NCBI GenBank assembly: GCA_030595925.1
Contig: JAUVLC010000124.1
Span: 1-6,945 of the forward strand
DNA: 6,945 nucleotides
From: Clostridia bacterium
GTDB lineage: Bacteria; CBDUZB01; JAGLHV01
Direction: 5' to 3'
A program made the translations under genes and the position numbers. Positions 1 to 6,844 of the stretch are shown here, piece after piece. Each line of letters opens with the position of its first letter. The stretch's first letter is position 1. The notes under the pieces were generated by a model. The model saw nothing but the letters and a program-made list of their open reading frames with translations, made no database searches and was not told where the DNA came from.

Positions 1-111
1 TTTCTTGAAAATTTGTTACAAACTTGAGCAAGTTTCAAATCAATAGTAGAAAATTTGAAAATGTTAAAAAAAAGAGTATATCTGCAACATTATCGATTAC
101 TAAATCATTGA

Positions 112-849
112 TTAGTTCCACAATAAATACGAATGAACCAATTTCTTTTTATATTTATCTCTAAATTTTTTTTTATCTTTATCGGTTTTCTGCTTTTCAA
201 GCTGTCCCCTAAAATTGATTAATTTTTGTGATTGCTTTGAAATATTCCGATAATCAATAAGAGTAGGAACAAAAAGTGAAAATTCTTCTTTACTAATACC
301 TTTTCGTTTATTTTTTAATGCTTCCCATTTTTGATTTACTTTATTGATCAAGTGTAAAGTAGCAATAAAAGGCTTAATTGCAAAACCGTCTTTTTGGGAA
401 AAACTTTTGGTATCAGGATTAGGTAATTGCCATTTGAGAAAATGAATAAAAAACAATTTACCTAAATCATAATCATCGGACAAAAAATATTCACCTAATT
501 CTGTAATTGCAAGACTTTCGGCAGAATTTTTTGCTATACATAATCCCATTTTATTTAACGGTGCTACTGAATTTCGTCCTCGCATTGCTGGATCTTCATA
601 GTTTTGACGATTAAAAACTTGCTCAGCAACAGAAAACGACATTTCTTTTTCAATATCATCAAAATAGTTTTTCTGTTCAGTTGTTAAAACAGTTGGTTTA
701 TATAGCTTGTTTTGTATTAGCAATATCTGATATTTAATTTGACTCTTTGAATCAAAATGTTTTCCCTCAAGAATTTTCAAAACACGGAGAAAACCTCGTA
801 AGCGTTCAGGATTTCTAACTGTTGTTGATATTGACCAGGGTTTTTTCAT
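112..849 (-). pseudogene. AlwI-family type IIS restriction endonuclease, C-terminally truncated
   Basis: The product (245 aa) begins MKKPWSISTTVRNPERLRGF, the hallmark N-terminus of the AlwI/PleI/MlyI/BstNBI endonucleases, which cut or nick a few bases outside asymmetric 5-bp sites such as GGATC or GAGTC. Further family-like segments are DPAMRGRNSVAPLNKMG (residues 86-102) and ITELGEYFLSDDYDLGKLFF...LKWQLPNP (115-145). From memory, relatives run to about 550-600 aa and keep catalysis in the C-terminal half. Here a TAA at 114-112 ends the frame, and all three frames downstream soon meet stops, so the nuclease part is absent or frame-shifted. A 9-A run (166-174) lies near the end. The ATG at 849 is chosen over the in-frame TTG at 870 because it matches the family N-terminus and has AAGGGA six bases upstream. 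It follows the methyltransferase gene by 2 bp, as expected for a restriction-modification pair. Target site unknown. Family assignment is firm; inactivity is inference. Confidence 0.82.
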
Positions 850-851
850 AA

Positions 852-2678
852 TTATTCCCTTACTTTGCAATAAAAAACTCTTTCACTATGTCCATTAGTA
901 TTACTCTTACCAGTTGTAAAAGCCTTATAATCACGTTCAAAAATTTCTACTTTTCCCTTGTTTTTTAAGATATTAATCATTACATCATCTTTGATACGAG
1001 CATTTGATCTACCGTTTTTTGACTTACCGGTATTGTTGTAAGAAACTAAAATATGCTTGCAACTTGCATTTCTAATTAAATCCGCAAATACTTTGGAGGC
1101 AATTTTTAAACAATATTCACTTTTTAAATGAGCTCTATCCATTTTTTTTGCTTTACCATATAATAATGGTTTTTCCCATGTTGCAAGATTTTCAAGCAAA
1201 TGATAAGCATCACTATATTGACGAGAATTATAAGGTGGATCTATATATAAAACATCACAAGATATTTTTTTGATAAGTTTATTAGCATCTTCTTTAAAAA
1301 TTTTATTGTTATAGTTGTTTCCTCTATCAATATTGGGCATTAAAAGCTGTATCGGTTGTACACTATCTAATTTTTTTCTGTAAGCATCGTAATGCCCTAC
1401 TGTATTTGCTACTTTGTCCGTAGCATATAATAAAGCAGTTATCAACAGCGATTTTTCATCGTCGTTTATTGCTATATCTTCAATCTTCTCCCTAATAATA
1501 TTTATTTTACGTGCATTTTCTAAAGTAAAATAAGTATTGCCATAATGGTTAGAAAAATAATTGTCTTGCTCCGGTTCTAAATTATTTAACAAATCAATTT
1601 TCTCTCTTAGAAAGTTTAAATCTATTTGTGTTGTTCCAAGAAAAGCTTTCAAGGAAATATAATTGTTAAATAATAAATCATTACTAATAATTTTGATATT
1701 TTTTCGGTTAAATCTTTCGCCTACAACTCCGGTCCCTGCAAAAATATCACAAAACGATTCAAACCCATTACATTTTTCATTGACAATGTCCTCAATAAAT
1801 CCGAGTAATTTATATTTATTGCCAAGAAACCTCCTGCTTTGTATTTGAAATTCTCCCGCAATATTCCTTTTTTTAGGTGTAAGATAAATTTTATGAACTT
1901 TCTTTGTAGCAGGAATATACGACGATGTTTCAGTTTCTAATAAATCGAAAAGTGAATATTGAATATCATCGGAAACATAACAAGCTAATTCATCTTCTCG
2001 CTGCTGTAAATTTTTAAAGAAACTATGAAAGTTGTTGTCTGTCATAATAATGAAATCAATAACATTTATTCCCATTATTTTTCCTGCTCCGACAATCTTA
2101 TTGACAACTTCAATATCTTGTTTGCTGGGTGCCAAATTACCCGATGGGTGATTGTGAACCAATATAATTCCTGCTGCTCTTAATTCCACTGCAGGACCAA
2201 AAATTTCACGAGGATGAACTATACTTTTATCAAGAATACCAATGGATACAACTTCCTTTTTTAGCAATACATTTCTTGCATTCAAATAAAGACAAACCAG
2301 ATATTCTTTTTTCTTGTTTTTTAAATCGGAATTGAGAGAAATTACATCTTCAGCAAACAAGATACGGCTTTCTTTTGATTCTCTCTCATCGTAAAATCTT
2401 TTAACTAAAGCAAGTGCAGCAATAATTTGTAAAGCTTTTATTTTTCCGATTCCTTTTACTTTAATCAAGTCATTAACTGTCAAATCTAAAAAATTATTTC
2501 CAAATTTTCTAATGATTTGTTCAGAAAGTTTTTTAACATTTTTCCCTTTAATTCCACTTCCTAATATAATAGCTAAAAGTTCGGATTTAGTTAATCCATC
2601 AGGACCCTGTAATTTCATTTTTTCACGCGGTCTATCAATTTTTGGGAGATCTTTAATTCTTTGAGTTAAAACTCGCAT
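852..2678 (-). CDS. RadC (HhH-JAMM) fused to a D12-class N6-adenine DNA methyltransferase
   Basis: A 608-aa two-part protein. Residues 5-225 are RadC-like: the N-terminal signature IKDLPKIDRPREK, a helix-hairpin-helix around KGIGKIKA (75-82), and a JAMM metal site H175-N-H177-(x7)-S185-x2-D188, with E142 as possible catalytic Glu. RadC proteins are common on mobile and defence DNA; a repair role is unproven. Residues 226-280 form a linker containing QYSLF (240-244). Residues 281-608 are a Dam-like adenine methyltransferase: motif X RRFLGNKYKLLGF (282-294), motif I DIFAGTG (311-317), a recognition region of roughly 340-470, and motif IV DPPY (480-483). It should methylate adenine in the endonuclease target, protecting host DNA. 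The ATG at 2678 is preferred over GTG at 2687 because AGGTG sits six bases before it, while the GTG would overlap that site. It lies 11 bp after lexA and 2 bp before the endonuclease gene. The frame is open throughout. Both domain calls are firm; how they cooperate is unknown. Confidence 0.92.
   Translation of the reverse strand: MRVLTQRIKDLPKIDRPREKMKLQGPDGLTKSELLAIILGSGIKGKNVKKLSEQIIRKFGNNFLDLTVNDLIKVKGIGKIKALQIIAALALVKRFYDERESKESRILFAEDVISLNSDLKNKKKEYLVCLYLNARNVLLKKEVVSIGILDKSIVHPREIFGPAVELRAAGIILVHNHPSGNLAPSKQDIEVVNKIVGAGKIMGINVIDFIIMTDNNFHSFFKNLQQREDELACYVSDDIQYSLFDLLETETSSYIPATKKVHKIYLTPKKRNIAGEFQIQSRRFLGNKYKLLGFIEDIVNEKCNGFESFCDIFAGTGVVGERFNRKNIKIISNDLLFNNYISLKAFLGTTQIDLNFLREKIDLLNNLEPEQDNYFSNHYGNTYFTLENARKINIIREKIEDIAINDDEKSLLITALLYATDKVANTVGHYDAYRKKLDSVQPIQLLMPNIDRGNNYNNKIFKEDANKLIKKISCDVLYIDPPYNSRQYSDAYHLLENLATWEKPLLYGKAKKMDRAHLKSEYCLKIASKVFADLIRNASCKHILVSYNNTGKSKNGRSNARIKDDVMINILKNKGKVEIFERDYKAFTTGKSNTNGHSERVFYCKVRE
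856..861 (-). promoter_or_regulatory. Ribosome binding site of the AlwI-family gene
   Basis: On the minus strand AAGGGA lies six bases upstream of the ATG at 849-847, inside the last codons of the radC-methyltransferase gene. It decides for the ATG start over the TTG at 870, and it suggests that the endonuclease is translated together with, and just after, the methyltransferase. Confidence 0.6.
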
Positions 2679-2689: not shown

Positions 2690-3328
2690 CTATATTTTTC
2701 TAATAACACCTTTTACTTTACCTATTATCATAAAGTTATTATAAGACGTATCTATAAATATTGGCTCCATACTATCATTTGCAGGTTGCAGAATTATTCT
2801 ATTATGCGTTTTGTCCTTATAAAATTTTTTAATTGTTGCTTCATCTTCAATAAGTGCAACGACTATGTCTCCTTCTTCCGCATTCTGTTGTTGACGAACT
2901 ATTACACAATCCCCATCTAATATACCAACATTAATCATGCTATCTCCTTCAACTCTTAAAGCAAAAATGCCTTCAGCATTTCTTGCAAGGGTTCTATCAA
3001 CAATTATTGTTCCTTCTATATTCTCTTGAGCAAGGATTGGTTTACCCGCTGATACTCTCCCTACTATAGGTACTTCAGTAATGTTATTCTTGTTTTCTCT
3101 TGGTGAGGTATGAATTAATATTTCAATGCCTCTTGACTTATGAGCACGGCGGGAAATATATCCTTTTCGTTCAAGAGCACCAAGATGATCTTGAACAGCA
3201 TTTGGAGATTTAAAAGAAAATTTATCTTGAACCTCCGGAATAGACGGAGGATATCCAAACTGCTTTACATTTGATAAAATAAATTCAAATATTTGCTGTT
3301 GGCGTTTTGTCAATAATGAATTTTTCAT
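2690..3328 (-). CDS. lexA: LexA repressor, first gene of the restriction-modification operon
   Basis: A full-length 212-aa LexA: a DNA-binding repressor that cuts itself when stimulated by RecA filaments, releasing SOS genes. The winged helix-turn-helix covers residues 1-70. Its recognition helix SPNAVQDHLGALERKG (41-56) resembles the E. coli SPNAAEEHLKALARKG, which agrees with the E. coli-type operator found upstream. The scissile Ala94-Gly95 lies in VGRVSAGKP, the catalytic serine is Ser130 in EGDSM, and the catalytic lysine is Lys167 in EATIKKF. All are in the expected order, so cleavage should work. The ATG at 3328 is chosen because the family starts at this MKNSLLTKRQQ segment and AAAGGT lies seven bases upstream; extending further would run through the -10 box and SOS operator. 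The gene ends in TAG and is followed after 11 bp by the radC-methyltransferase fusion. It may be the host lexA or a second copy dedicated to this cassette; the window cannot tell. Confidence 0.95.
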   Translation of the reverse strand: MKNSLLTKRQQQIFEFILSNVKQFGYPPSIPEVQDKFSFKSPNAVQDHLGALERKGYISRRAHKSRGIEILIHTSPRENKNNITEVPIVGRVSAGKPILAQENIEGTIIVDRTLARNAEGIFALRVEGDSMINVGILDGDCVIVRQQQNAEEGDIVVALIEDEATIKKFYKDKTHNRIILQPANDSMEPIFIDTSYNNFMIIGKVKGVIRKI

Positions 3329-3356
3329 ATTTTTTACCTTTGTAAAAATCAACACA

Positions 3357-3385
3357 ATTATACTGTAAGAATTTACAGTTGTCAA
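3357..3385 (-). promoter_or_regulatory. Sigma70-type promoter of the lexA operon
   Basis: Read on the minus strand, TTGACA (3385-3380) and TATAAT (3362-3357) are both perfect consensus boxes separated by 17 bp, the optimal spacing. Transcription should begin near 3350, giving a leader of about 22 bases that contains the AAAGGT ribosome binding site of lexA. No other promoter is evident before either downstream gene, so this one probably drives all three. The spacer is the SOS operator described separately. Confidence 0.87.
3361..3380. promoter_or_regulatory. SOS box (LexA operator) in the promoter spacer
   Basis: The plus strand reads TACTGTAAGAATTTACAGTT. The core CTGT-N8-ACAG (3363-3378) fits the E. 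coli-type LexA box, and the inverted arms ACTGTAA/TTACAGT match perfectly over 7 bp. It fills the interval between the -35 and -10 boxes, so bound LexA would block RNA polymerase directly. The site predicts autorepression of lexA and damage-inducible expression of the radC-methyltransferase and endonuclease genes. Confidence 0.9.
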
Positions 3386-3403: not shown

Positions 3404-3979
3404 TTATATTAAATCGTAAAAAGACTCTTTGTTTAAATAAAAACAATATTTCTTTACCAGTCTCTCTAAGTTGTTATCTGTATCTAATAATATCCAATCA
3501 TCTGCAAAACCTTTAAAACAGCTCCTCTCAACACTAAATTCTCTCTTTGCCTCATCAATAAGGACAAAACGCATCATAGGCAAATAAGTAATAACTTGCT
3601 CTAAAACTCGATTGAATTTTTCTTCATTATACAAAGGAAAATCAGAAAAAGAATTTTTTAAAGAACCCACATTTTGATCCGGAAGGAATATAATAATTTG
3701 ATTGTTTTTAATGTCAATTTTAAAATTTTCTATTTTTGAAAAGTTTCTAACTCCATTTCTAATACTATCAATTTCTTTATCTGTAATAATTCTTGGAATA
3801 ATTTTTCTTAGAAAAACCTGGGCATTCGGATTCTCGTAAACTTCATATCCATCAGGAATTACTTTAACCAAATCATCACCTTCTTTCTTTGAAAAAAAAT
3901 ACTTCTACTTACCAGTTTTCGTTGTTTTATGATAAAGATAATATGTATCCCCTCGTCGATTTTTGTATATTATAGTCAT
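3404..3979 (-). pseudogene. Conserved-looking hypothetical protein interrupted by an in-frame TAG
   Basis: I do not know its function. Reading from the ATG at 3979, 24 codons (MTIIYKNRRGDTYYLYHKTTKTGK) lead into TAG at 3907-3905. The same frame then continues KYFFSKKEGDDLVKVIPDGY...NAQVFLRK for 166 residues to TAA at 3406-3404. Protein-like composition on both sides, and GAGGG six bases before the ATG, show that the whole 191-codon frame was one gene. lexA and the next gene upstream also end in TAG, so TAG is read as stop here. A nonsense mutation or a base error is the simplest explanation. A shorter product of 155 aa could start at TTG 3871, which has AAGGTG just upstream. The ATG lies 10 bp after the preceding gene, so the two were co-transcribed. 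No membrane segments or known motifs are visible. The stop is only 18 bp from the lexA -35 box, with no terminator between. Confidence 0.7.
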
Positions 3980-3989
3980 CAATTTCCCT

Positions 3990-4406
3990 CTATTTGAAAT
4001 ACTGAGCAATATATTTCCATAAATCAGTTTGATTTACCTTGTCTATTTTATTATTAATTTCATCCATATATTCACAAAGCTTTTCAAAAGCCTCATCTTG
4101 TGAAAATTTGATATCATTTTTTTTTGTTACTTCTTCCCGTTTTACTATAGCAATTTTTTCTACAAAATTTTCCCAAAAAGTACCACCCTCGAATTTATCT
4201 ATTTTTCCAAAAATATCATCGTATAAATTGTTATATTCCTCATCTGATAAACCGCAAAATTTAACAAATTCATCAATTAATGGTTTTTCATACTCAATCT
4301 TTTCCCCTAAAACCTCTTTGTTTGTATCATCTATTATTTCTTGATAGATGAATGCTTCCAATATTTTTCCAGCTTTCTCTATCTTAATTTTCATTTCTTT
4401 GTGCAT
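3990..4406 (-). CDS. Hypothetical acidic protein, 138 aa
   Basis: I do not recognise this protein. It is soluble-looking, rich in Glu, Asp, Lys and Ile, and has no signal peptide, membrane helix or catalytic motif. The N-terminal half looks like mixed sheet (KIKIEKAGKILEAFIYQEI). The C-terminal half is probably helical and ends KVNQTDLWKYIAQYFK. The ATG at 4406 has AAGGAG 12 bases upstream, slightly far; the next in-frame ATG (residue 5, at 4394) would be farther still. It ends in TAG 10 bp before the ATG of the interrupted gene, and the two form a small operon that may once have encoded interacting proteins. A toxin-antitoxin or accessory defence pair is possible but nothing in the sequence shows it. 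Confidence 0.65.
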   Translation of the reverse strand: MHKEMKIKIEKAGKILEAFIYQEIIDDTNKEVLGEKIEYEKPLIDEFVKFCGLSDEEYNNLYDDIFGKIDKFEGGTFWENFVEKIAIVKREEVTKKNDIKFSQDEAFEKLCEYMDEINNKIDKVNQTDLWKYIAQYFK

Positions 4407-4681: not shown

Positions 4682-6436
4682 TTAACCTTGTTTTTTCATT
4701 ATAGGTAACTTAATGCTGATTTTTGTTCCTTTTCCAACTTTACTTTCTAATTCAATACTACCCAGATGTCCCTCAATAATAGTTTGACAAACCGTTATGC
4801 CCAGTCCACTTCCATTAGGTTTGGTGGTAAAGAGTGGGTCAAATACCTTAGCCAAATTTTCTTTCGTTATCCCTTCTCCTGTATCATCTATATTAATTTC
4901 TAAAAATTCATCTTTTTGGCTGCCGGTAAGAGTAATTTTTCCACCATCAGGCATAGCTTGCAGAGCATTTAAAATAAGGTTATAGAAAACAATTTTAATC
5001 TGCACCCTATCAACATTGACATAGGGCAACTGCCTTTCAACCTCTACACTTACCTTTATATTTTTTGGTATATTAATTTCGTGGAGTGATTCTTTTATAA
5101 TATCATAAATATTAAAATTACCTAAATGTGGTTCTTTTACCTGGCTAAATAATAAAAAATCATTAATAATCTTATCTGAAATATCCACCTCCTGATCTAA
5201 AATATCCAGTTGCCTTTTAATCTTTTCATCCGTTGATATCTCCAATCTCATTTTTAATAAATAGACTGATGATTTAATTATGCATAATGGATTTCTTAAT
5301 TCATGGCTTACCATACCGGCTAATTTACCTAATGCAGCCAATTTCTCTGAACGACTCATTTTATCCTGGATTTCCTTTAACTCCTTCTCTGCTTTTTTAT
5401 GTTTGGTGATGTCATTCGCGATAAAAACAATACCGGCAATATCCCCTGCTTCATTATGGATAGCAGACGTTGAAAAAAGTACTGAAATATTTTCTCCCCC
5501 CTTTTTATTAAAAATAAATTCATAATTCCTGATGGTTTCTCCTTTGATAATTTTATCTACCAGAAAATGCTTGGAATTTTGCGCCGTAAAAAACATATCA
5601 ATTGATTTTCCTTTTAACTCACTTCTTTTATATCCCACCAAGTTTAATGCTGCATTATTCACAGTTATAATTTTACCCTTAGTATCCAATAGGATTAAGG
5701 CATCGGTCATTGTAGAAATAATTTTTTCTGCCGCAATAGTTGGGGTAATGATTAAAAATTTATATTTAGTTATTGCATAAACTATTCCAAAGGACAAACC
5801 AAGTACAGCAATATTTCCTAAACGAGGTGTTGTATTAACTCCCAATTCCGGAAGGAGGGCATCCGATAAAGTACCAAGGATAAGAGAAATAATTGAACTA
5901 ATATAGATTATCTTTGCTTGTTTTTTCTCGATTAATTTCTTTGTCTTTTTACTGAAATTAACGGTTAAATAAATTCCTGTTAGTATAAATGAACTATAAT
6001 AAACATAAAAAAGATAGCGCCAAATTGACTCTCTCCATGTAAATACCCATCCCCAGGGTTGTTTGATAAAATATTCTTTTAAAAAACCTGCATAGTTTAC
6101 ATAAATGAATAATATAGGTAGTACAAAAAGAAAACCACGAAAAAGATTAGATTTTATTATCTCATTTTTTTTAGTAAAAATAAAAATAAACCAAATATAA
6201 AAACTAGCAAAACTACACCAGCCAATAGCACTGAAATTTTCGGCTACTCTGACAGTATTTAAAGAGACACTAGGATTTTGTATGAAAATTTGGGTAAAAC
6301 TCCACAAACAAAAACTAAAACAAAAAGCTGCACATGCTCTATTAAGTGAACCTTTCGGATTTTTAATTAATGCAAAACCCGCTAAATAAGAATATATTAA
6401 AGAAGCAAAAAAATGGATAAATGGTGACAAACACAT
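4682..6436 (-). CDS. Membrane sensor histidine kinase (7TM-PAS-HisKA-HATPase)
   Basis: A 584-aa sensor kinase that would phosphorylate itself on histidine and pass the phosphate to a response regulator not in this window. Residues 1-230 carry about seven hydrophobic segments separated by short loops, in the style of the HisKA_7TM sensor. Residues 235-347 are a PAS domain (DALILLDTKGKIITVNNAA) ending in DITKHKKAEKEL. The H-box VSHELRNPL has phospho-acceptor His378. The ATPase domain shows the N-box NLILNALQAM (486-495), G1 DTGEGI (518-523), the F-box region FDPLFTTKP (532-540) and G2 GSGLGI (542-547), so it looks catalytically intact. No receiver domain is attached. The ATG at 6436 begins just before the first membrane helix and has AGGAG 11 bases upstream. 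The signal sensed cannot be read from sequence. It shares strand but no tight spacing with the genes downstream, so I see no functional link to the SOS operon. Confidence 0.93.
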   Translation of the reverse strand: MCLSPFIHFFASLIYSYLAGFALIKNPKGSLNRACAAFCFSFCLWSFTQIFIQNPSVSLNTVRVAENFSAIGWCSFASFYIWFIFIFTKKNEIIKSNLFRGFLFVLPILFIYVNYAGFLKEYFIKQPWGWVFTWRESIWRYLFYVYYSSFILTGIYLTVNFSKKTKKLIEKKQAKIIYISSIISLILGTLSDALLPELGVNTTPRLGNIAVLGLSFGIVYAITKYKFLIITPTIAAEKIISTMTDALILLDTKGKIITVNNAALNLVGYKRSELKGKSIDMFFTAQNSKHFLVDKIIKGETIRNYEFIFNKKGGENISVLFSTSAIHNEAGDIAGIVFIANDITKHKKAEKELKEIQDKMSRSEKLAALGKLAGMVSHELRNPLCIIKSSVYLLKMRLEISTDEKIKRQLDILDQEVDISDKIINDFLLFSQVKEPHLGNFNIYDIIKESLHEINIPKNIKVSVEVERQLPYVNVDRVQIKIVFYNLILNALQAMPDGGKITLTGSQKDEFLEINIDDTGEGITKENLAKVFDPLFTTKPNGSGLGITVCQTIIEGHLGSIELESKVGKGTKISIKLPIMKKQG

Positions 6437-6628
6437 AAGCCAATAATCTCCTATATTTTTTCGATATTTCTATTTTTCAAATTTACATTTCTGGATTACT
6501 AAAATCCTTATGAAAATCGGGGGAAGAAAAACCGGGGGCAACTACCACATCAAAATCAGGGTTGTGACATAATCCAGTCACTTAGATTACCAAACTGTGT
6601 CATAACTCCATTTTTTGAGGCAATTGTA

Positions 6629-6650
6629 GGGGCGACATTTATGACGCCCG
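6629..6650. repeat. Short palindrome GGGCGACAT-TT-ATGACGCCC
   Basis: The arms 6630-6638 and 6641-6649 pair except for one A-A mismatch, around a 2-base centre. It resembles the short 'GTAGGGGCGAC...GTCGCCC' palindromes dispersed in many bacterial genomes (recalled, not searched). Its right half is part of the direct repeat at 6638-6659. Confidence 0.55.
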
Positions 6651-6659
6651 TCGAAAAAG
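6638..6659 (+). repeat. Direct repeat, copy 1
   Basis: This 22-base segment (TTTATGACGCCC then GTCGAAAAAG) recurs at 6787-6809 with a single extra C. The two copies bracket the large palindrome at 6673-6760, which suggests insertion into, or duplication of, a repeat unit. Confidence 0.7.
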
Positions 6660-6672
6660 GCCTTTTTGTTTC

Positions 6673-6760
6673 TGTCATTGCGAGCCCCTAAGGGCGCGGC
6701 AATCTCATTCTCCGACGATAACGACGAGATTGCTTCGTCGCTTCGCTCCTCGCAACGACA
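6673..6760. repeat. Palindromic dispersed repeat (GTCATTGCGAG type, MITE-like)
   Basis: Outer arms TGTCATTGCGAG (6673-6684) and CTCGCAACGACA (6749-6760) match in 11 of 12 positions when inverted. Inner arms GCAATCTC (6699-6706) and GAGATTGC (6726-6733) are perfect. The half CTTCGTCGCTTCGCTCCTCGC (6733-6753) is the familiar sequence that, when translated, gives spurious 'SLRGAKRRSN' proteins in many genomes. It carries no gene of its own and is a non-autonomous dispersed element. Confidence 0.8.
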
Positions 6761-6786
6761 CCTTAGAGGAGTTTTTCAACAATCTC

Positions 6787-6809
6787 TTTATGACGCCCCG
6801 TCGAAAAAG
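6787..6809 (+). repeat. Direct repeat, copy 2
   Basis: A 23-base copy of 6638-6659 with one additional C (GACGCCCC instead of GACGCCC). It lies between the large palindrome and the perfect hairpin at 6819-6844. Confidence 0.7.
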
Positions 6810-6818
6810 ATAATGAAC

Positions 6819-6844
6819 TACCCTGTGGCAGAGACCACAGGGTA
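6819..6844 (-). repeat. Perfect 10-bp hairpin after an incoming gene; possible terminator
   Basis: TACCCTGTGG and CCACAGGGTA are perfectly complementary around a 6-base loop. On the minus strand it lies 8 bases past the stop of the partial gene at 6945-6853. The first T-rich stretch comes about 10 bases after the stem, so it is not a textbook intrinsic terminator; it may be another dispersed palindrome that also helps end transcription. Confidence 0.6.

Follow-up and report, generated by a model that had tools for sequence, protein, structure and literature searches.

A RadC module with a candidate clamp-binding motif is fused to exchangeable DNA methyltransferases in restriction-modification operons

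One lineage of RadC stands, joined in frame, ahead of unrelated classes of DNA methyltransferase, and the linker between the two parts carries a short conserved motif that resembles the binding consensus of the bacterial sliding clamp. With slightly more than even confidence, we place the member described here, radC-M, in a type II (AlwI-family, probably IIS) restriction-modification (R-M) operon as its first modification methyltransferase, whose RadC and linker may serve as a clamp-docking adaptor, so that new DNA would be methylated ahead of cleavage. RadC occurs in a large proportion of bacteria, yet its function is debated and its repair role is disputed in the literature. At least 60 fusions with exchangeable methylases tie it to DNA modification, and make its role accessible to single-residue mutants.

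The fused gene and its recurrence

The gene lies on contig C61, 6945 bases long, in a draft genome of 2.6 Mb; the whole contig is called the window below. The features discussed here are:

1..141, unstranded: dispersed repeat entered by the endonuclease frame, with identical copies (139-141 bases) on two other contigs of the genome
112..849, minus strand: AlwI-family restriction endonuclease, N-terminal fragment, starting 2 bases past the methylase stop
852..2678, minus strand: radC-M, RadC (HhH and JAMM) joined to a D12-class adenine methyltransferase, 608 aa
855..1844, minus strand: D12 methyltransferase domain, residues 279-608 (RRFLGNK, FAGTG, DPPY)
1845..2009, minus strand: linker, approximately residues 224-278, with pLDDT <50 over 237-272 in the predicted model
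1947..1961, minus strand: conserved motif QYSLF, residues 240-244, like the clamp-binding motif QxxLF; context YVSDDIQYSLFDLLE
2010..2678, minus strand: RadC module, approximately residues 1-223 (UPF0758_N/HhH and RadC JAB; JAMM residues H175, H177, S185 and D188)
2690..3331, minus strand: lexA, LexA repressor (HTH and S24 peptidase; Ala-Gly site and Ser/Lys kept), 11 bases before the radC-M start
3357..3385, minus strand: promoter TTGACA-ACTGTAAATTCTTACAG-TATAAT, with a LexA-type palindrome, CTGT-N8-ACAG, filling the 17-base spacer

The radC-M frame runs without interruption from 2687 to 852 on the minus strand. The ATG at 2678 is preceded by AGAGGTG, a plausible ribosome site, and is the natural start, giving 608 codons to the stop at 852. 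Pfam profiles, numbered here from a GTG three codons ahead of this ATG, match UPF0758_N at residues 11-85 (E 2e-20, 72.9 bits), RadC JAB at 114-224 (E 2e-35, 121.6 bits) and MethyltransfD12 (PF02086) at 287-526 (E 7e-30). Both RadC domains exceed their curated cut-offs, which places the protein in the RadC family (UPF0758), and the NCBIfam RadC equivalog NF000642 scores 206.5 bits against a cut-off of 180. The JAMM zinc-site residues (H175-x-H177-x7-S185-x2-D188) are present and are kept in homologues, as are FAGTG (313-317) and DPPY (480-483), which assign the second part to the D12 (Dam-like) class; PADLOC MTase_II scores 382 bits. In a fold search the solved structure closest to the RadC part was 2qlc (Z 20.6, rmsd 1.7 over 123 residues), and the methylase part resembled many Rossmann methyltransferases, among them DpnM (2dpm). 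The first-pass annotation of the window had described a single 608-codon frame with an intact RadC module and a complete D12 methyltransferase, and every motif that it named was found.

The fusion is genuine. Among 386 whole genomes searched at the protein level there were three more full-length examples, in G219 (74% identity), G116 (71%) and G161 (60%), and many more exist in public genomes. With the same architecture at 48-74% identity in independent genomes, an assembly join or missed stop is ruled out as its source, and recurrence likewise disposes of the idea that the fusion is a unique case. Long-frame candidates among the first 60 genomes (G014, G050 and G003) proved to have unrelated N-terminal extensions or a different methylase. 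In G219, G116 and G161 the next gene after the fusion is an intact AlwI-family endonuclease of 605-617 aa, and the one after that is a separate methylase of the N6_N4 class.

An alignment of the four sequences was used to scan public species genomes, giving 80 loci. Adding the window and the three genomes above to the scan results gives 60 loci with RadC-methyltransferase frames longer than 500 aa; because the scan patterns were taken from the RadC side, a fusion involving another RadC clade would escape notice. By the names on their MAG records, where binning errors are possible, the 60 hosts include Patescibacteria, Omnitrophota, Atribacterota, Nitrospirota, Planctomycetota, Ignavibacteriota, Cloacimonadota, Campylobacterota, others and a few archaea. 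The archaeal clamp is PCNA, and the archaeal MAG hosts possibly reflect binning error or transfer. In phage and plasmid collections no record matched 80% of the query in one place, and two scans of viral contigs gave weak RadC matches only.

The next four frames on the same strand include an endonuclease gene in 56 of the 60 fusions, counting the truncated one of the window and one (L138) assigned by position only; of the remaining four loci, two are truncated at contig ends. The proposal that the covalent link signifies a role in R-M is thus strongly supported, by recurrence, by the R-M operons with their several endonuclease families, and by the methylase exchanges described below. A tie to AlwI genes in particular had also been suggested; AlwI neighbours do recur, but the range is broader and takes in NgoFVII-like and other endonucleases.

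The neighbouring restriction gene of the window belongs to the AlwI family, but it is an N-terminal fragment (245 aa) that enters the dispersed repeat where the contig ends, not the intact adjacent endonuclease of an AlwI-type R-M system; its relatives have 605-617 aa, and homology stops near residue 215-250 of ~610. The nearest PADLOC model is a type II nicking endonuclease. The repeat at 1-141 is common to many contigs of this genome, several times at contig ends, and probably explains why the contig breaks off within the endonuclease gene. Elsewhere in the assembly we found no remainder of this gene and, for the second methylase, only a 47% relative on another contig in place of a close copy. 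With its endonuclease truncated, the methylase may therefore persist as a solitary enzyme under control of the linked LexA, although an assembly gap is possible.

The operon can be placed among known systems as follows: (i) AlwI-family type II(S) R-M systems with D12 methyltransferases share with the window the methylase domain, the endonuclease family and the M-R gene order. (ii) The staphylococcal and enterococcal plasmid members of that family that were encountered here are unfused and lack RadC, whereas the window methylase carries the RadC and linker adaptor; also unlike these plasmid systems, relatives of the window fusion have their second methylase as a separate gene of the N4/N6 class. 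(iii) With the RadC family (UPF0758, PF04002/PF20582; 2qlc) radC-M has the full HhH and JAMM module in common, but differs in its fusion to a DNA methyltransferase and in belonging to a clade apart from the sampled stand-alone RadCs. (iv) Polyvalent-protein RadC and RadC-like DinG, in the available text of their descriptions, likewise place a RadC/JAB module in multidomain nucleic-acid enzymes tied to genome conflict (PMC5512222, PMC11981726). Published fusion partners of RadC are HhH, ArdC-N and DinG-type helicases, and the available text of the same two papers does not mention a DNA methyltransferase. Our literature search, in which subscription journals and preprints were scarcely covered so that priority is uncertain, returned no account of a RadC-DNA methyltransferase fusion.

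One RadC lineage ahead of unrelated methylases

An IQ-TREE phylogeny built on the RadC part sets the 60 fused RadCs, without exception, apart from the sampled stand-alone RadCs (98/94 support), and at least 15 changes of methylase class are needed on this tree. Type A (25 loci) has the D12 methylase of the window, usually with an AlwI endonuclease, intact in most relatives, and an N4/N6 methylase. Type B (26 loci) has a divergent D12 methylase with a shorter AlwI-like endonuclease and, in the cases examined, a second D12 methylase. Six fusions end in a C5 cytosine methylase; an NgoFVII-like endonuclease adjoins five of these, and four of those five also have a Vsr gene. In these four (L130, L132, L133 and L136) the order is RadC-C5 methylase fusion, then NgoFVII-like endonuclease and Vsr mismatch endonuclease. 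Two further fusions have a weakly recognised N4/N6-type methylase with the NgoFVII-like endonuclease family, and one has N6_N4_Mtase.

Pairs of fusions with different methylases mark the boundary of the exchanged module. Their protein identity is ~50-100% up to residue 250 and falls to ~8-60% in the following 25 residues, just past the linker motif; what travels is accordingly RadC together with the beginning of the linker, motif included. DNA similarity in five such pairs mostly covers only codons 1 to ~240-285, and upstream DNA is usually dissimilar. Exchanges in which methylase class differs behind a near-identical RadC (L095 against L116, L082 against L119), together with the end of similarity soon past the motif, are also what would be expected if the radC segment were mainly a genetic handle, providing homology for recombinational exchange of methylase-endonuclease cassettes and having little biochemical role. 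We consider this very improbable: a mere handle has no need of the strong conservation seen in the protein for both the catalytic JAMM residues and the motif, and the dissimilar upstream DNA also speaks against it.

The linker is predicted to be disordered, with the RadC and methylase domains folded in the model. Its sequence is divergent (mean 2.0 bits outside 232-250) save for one segment, YV[S/A][D/E]Gx-Q-x-[S/T]-L-F-D-L-x-E. Across 47 D12 fusions Y234, L243 and F244 never vary, and Q240 is conserved in 98%. The motif, Qx[S/T]LFDL.E, occurs in 60/60 fusions and in every methylase class, with one core residue varied in a few: in a table of 57 fusions, Q is found in 56 and F in 55, and the remaining three fusions read QLNLF. 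Because the adaptor of the fusions descends from one ancestor, this count does not stand for 60 independent gains. In other proteins of these loci the background rate of QxxLF is 1.0e-4 per residue, or 0.005 expected per linker, and inspection by eye of the last 28 residues of 91 stand-alone RadCs found nothing like the motif in these C-terminal tails.

The motif is also met where RadC is missing. Genome G185 has a related R-M unit without RadC, in which the N-terminus of the methylase consists of what appears to be the last RadC strand followed by a perfect QLSLF. An unfused methylase of the same family on an Enterococcus plasmid has QLELF at the equivalent place. The motif is absent from the unfused relative in genome G339, and is hence not essential for the methylase, and from a staphylococcal relative; it would be useful but not indispensable.

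A QxxLF-type motif in a predicted flexible segment is what the sequences of sliding-clamp binders have. The consensus for bacterial clamp binding is QL[S/D]LF, or more broadly QxxLF, with positions 1, 4 and 5 critical, according to the available text of PMC12309361; that of PMC4549789 gives a clamp-binding consensus in transposases. The likeness of radC-M to clamp-tethered polymerases and transposases consists in this motif within a predicted disordered segment, and on that likeness we infer that the motif docks on the sliding clamp DnaN. Position 2, often G, is variable and departs from the L preferred in the classical motif, and the residues next to the motif (Y-V-x-D/E-G ahead of it, D-L-x-E behind it) are conserved as well, which could point to another binding partner or a structural element. 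Accordingly the segment might be a short structural or partner-binding element, for instance for the endonuclease or the second methylase, with a fortuitous likeness to QxxLF. This seems quite improbable to us, given that the segment is kept alongside unrelated endonucleases (AlwI-like, NgoFVII-like) and methylases, making a specific R-M partner unlikely, and that it reads as a perfect QLSLF in the G185 methylase and as QLELF in the Enterococcus one.

Candidate roles of the RadC and linker module

In the mechanism that we propose, the N-terminus would be a separable adaptor of ~250 residues, made of RadC and a linker, predicted to be disordered, that bears the short linear motif QxxLF. The motif would dock on DnaN and hold the methylase at the replication fork, or on other newly made DNA that is loaded with clamps. 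The tethered enzyme could then modify unmodified or hemimethylated sites before the endonuclease cuts, lowering the risk of self-cutting, and RadC, through HhH and JAMM, might add a DNA contact or an enzymatic step at the clamp site. Such a delivery function would be generic, and for that reason the adaptor would suit adenine and cytosine methylases of differing specificity. Eukaryotic DNMT1 with PCNA is an analogous clamp-tethered enzyme. More tentatively, at somewhat below even confidence, we extend the proposal to RadC plus a clamp-docking linker as a portable fork-targeting adaptor ahead of unrelated methyltransferases in many R-M systems of uncultured prokaryotes, which would be a prokaryotic counterpart of PCNA-guided DNMT1 and would give RadC a defined role. 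If the motif does bind the clamp, it would show how an R-M system can methylate fresh DNA before its own endonuclease cuts. The literature search, with its scant coverage of subscription journals and preprints, returned no paper on R-M methylases that bind the clamp DnaN.

RadC may instead do the essential work, as a metal-dependent hydrolase of the JAMM type (nuclease or peptidase) that, for example, trims DNA ends or processes or inactivates a partner such as the endonuclease, with the motif only recruiting a partner or forming a processing site. The JAMM signature HNHPx6SxxD is kept in 59/60 fusions; this argues for a working site, and because of it an enzymatic role for RadC is possible. 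Stand-alone RadCs, too, can lie directly upstream of type I R-M genes: among 66 downstream neighbours, in a convenience sample biased to RadCs resembling that of the window, three were HsdM (HsdM_N) and three HSDR_N, against a base rate for HsdM of ~3e-4 per gene (estimated from ~50 HsdM_N matches in 60 genomes and the genome sizes). Aravind and colleagues, in the available text of PMC5512222 and PMC3482391, argue that RadC is a nucleic-acid-processing domain. The close R-M units of G185 and G339, on the other hand, do without RadC, so its activity is dispensable; the motif outlives the loss of RadC and is unlikely to be a mere RadC substrate; and the model (pLDDT <50) does not place the linker in the JAMM site with confidence. 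On these grounds we regard RadC as the working part as unlikely, and prefer the clamp-docking adaptor. Among the roles suggested for RadC in the first-pass annotation, the evidence favours that of directing the methylase, through a linker motif which that annotation did not include.

One of these pairings of a stand-alone RadC with type I R-M genes is in the window genome itself, where a second RadC gene, on contig C94, precedes an hsdM-hsdS cluster by ten bases; the cluster also has a RhuM-like gene (L021, 4274-4951 and 4961-6430).

LexA control and other genes of the window

The operon has its own LexA repressor gene. The palindrome CTGT-N8-ACAG in the spacer of the lexA promoter has a chance expectation of 0.01 per window, and an identical promoter and operator layout precedes the lexA-M-R operon of the distant genome G185. 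The window lexA is the only LexA found in its genome; no LexA DNA-binding domain was found in either of the two congeneric genomes, and another LexA is encoded elsewhere in G185, from which it appears that the window LexA travels with the R-M unit. An R-M operon with its own LexA and an operator in the promoter spacer is therefore seen in two distant genomes (window, 3357-3385 and 2690-3331; L060, 4166-4982), and damage-responsive expression of these lexA-linked operons would be a reasonable inference from the sequences. The unfused relative in G339 (L059, 6303-11320) follows not lexA but a pair made of an HTH protein and an ImmA/IrrE-like peptidase (domain call by eye), and its endonuclease gene seems to be divided between two frames.

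Upstream of the lexA promoter on the minus strand are frames of 155 and 138 aa (3404-3871 and 3990-4406) with no Pfam or NCBIfam match. Beyond them, also on the minus strand, is a 7TM-PAS sensor histidine kinase (4682-6436) with no evident tie to the R-M operon. The GC-rich stretch at 6600-6830 (GTCATTGCGAGCCCCTAAGGGCGCGGCAATC...) resembles, by eye, a dispersed inverted-repeat element.
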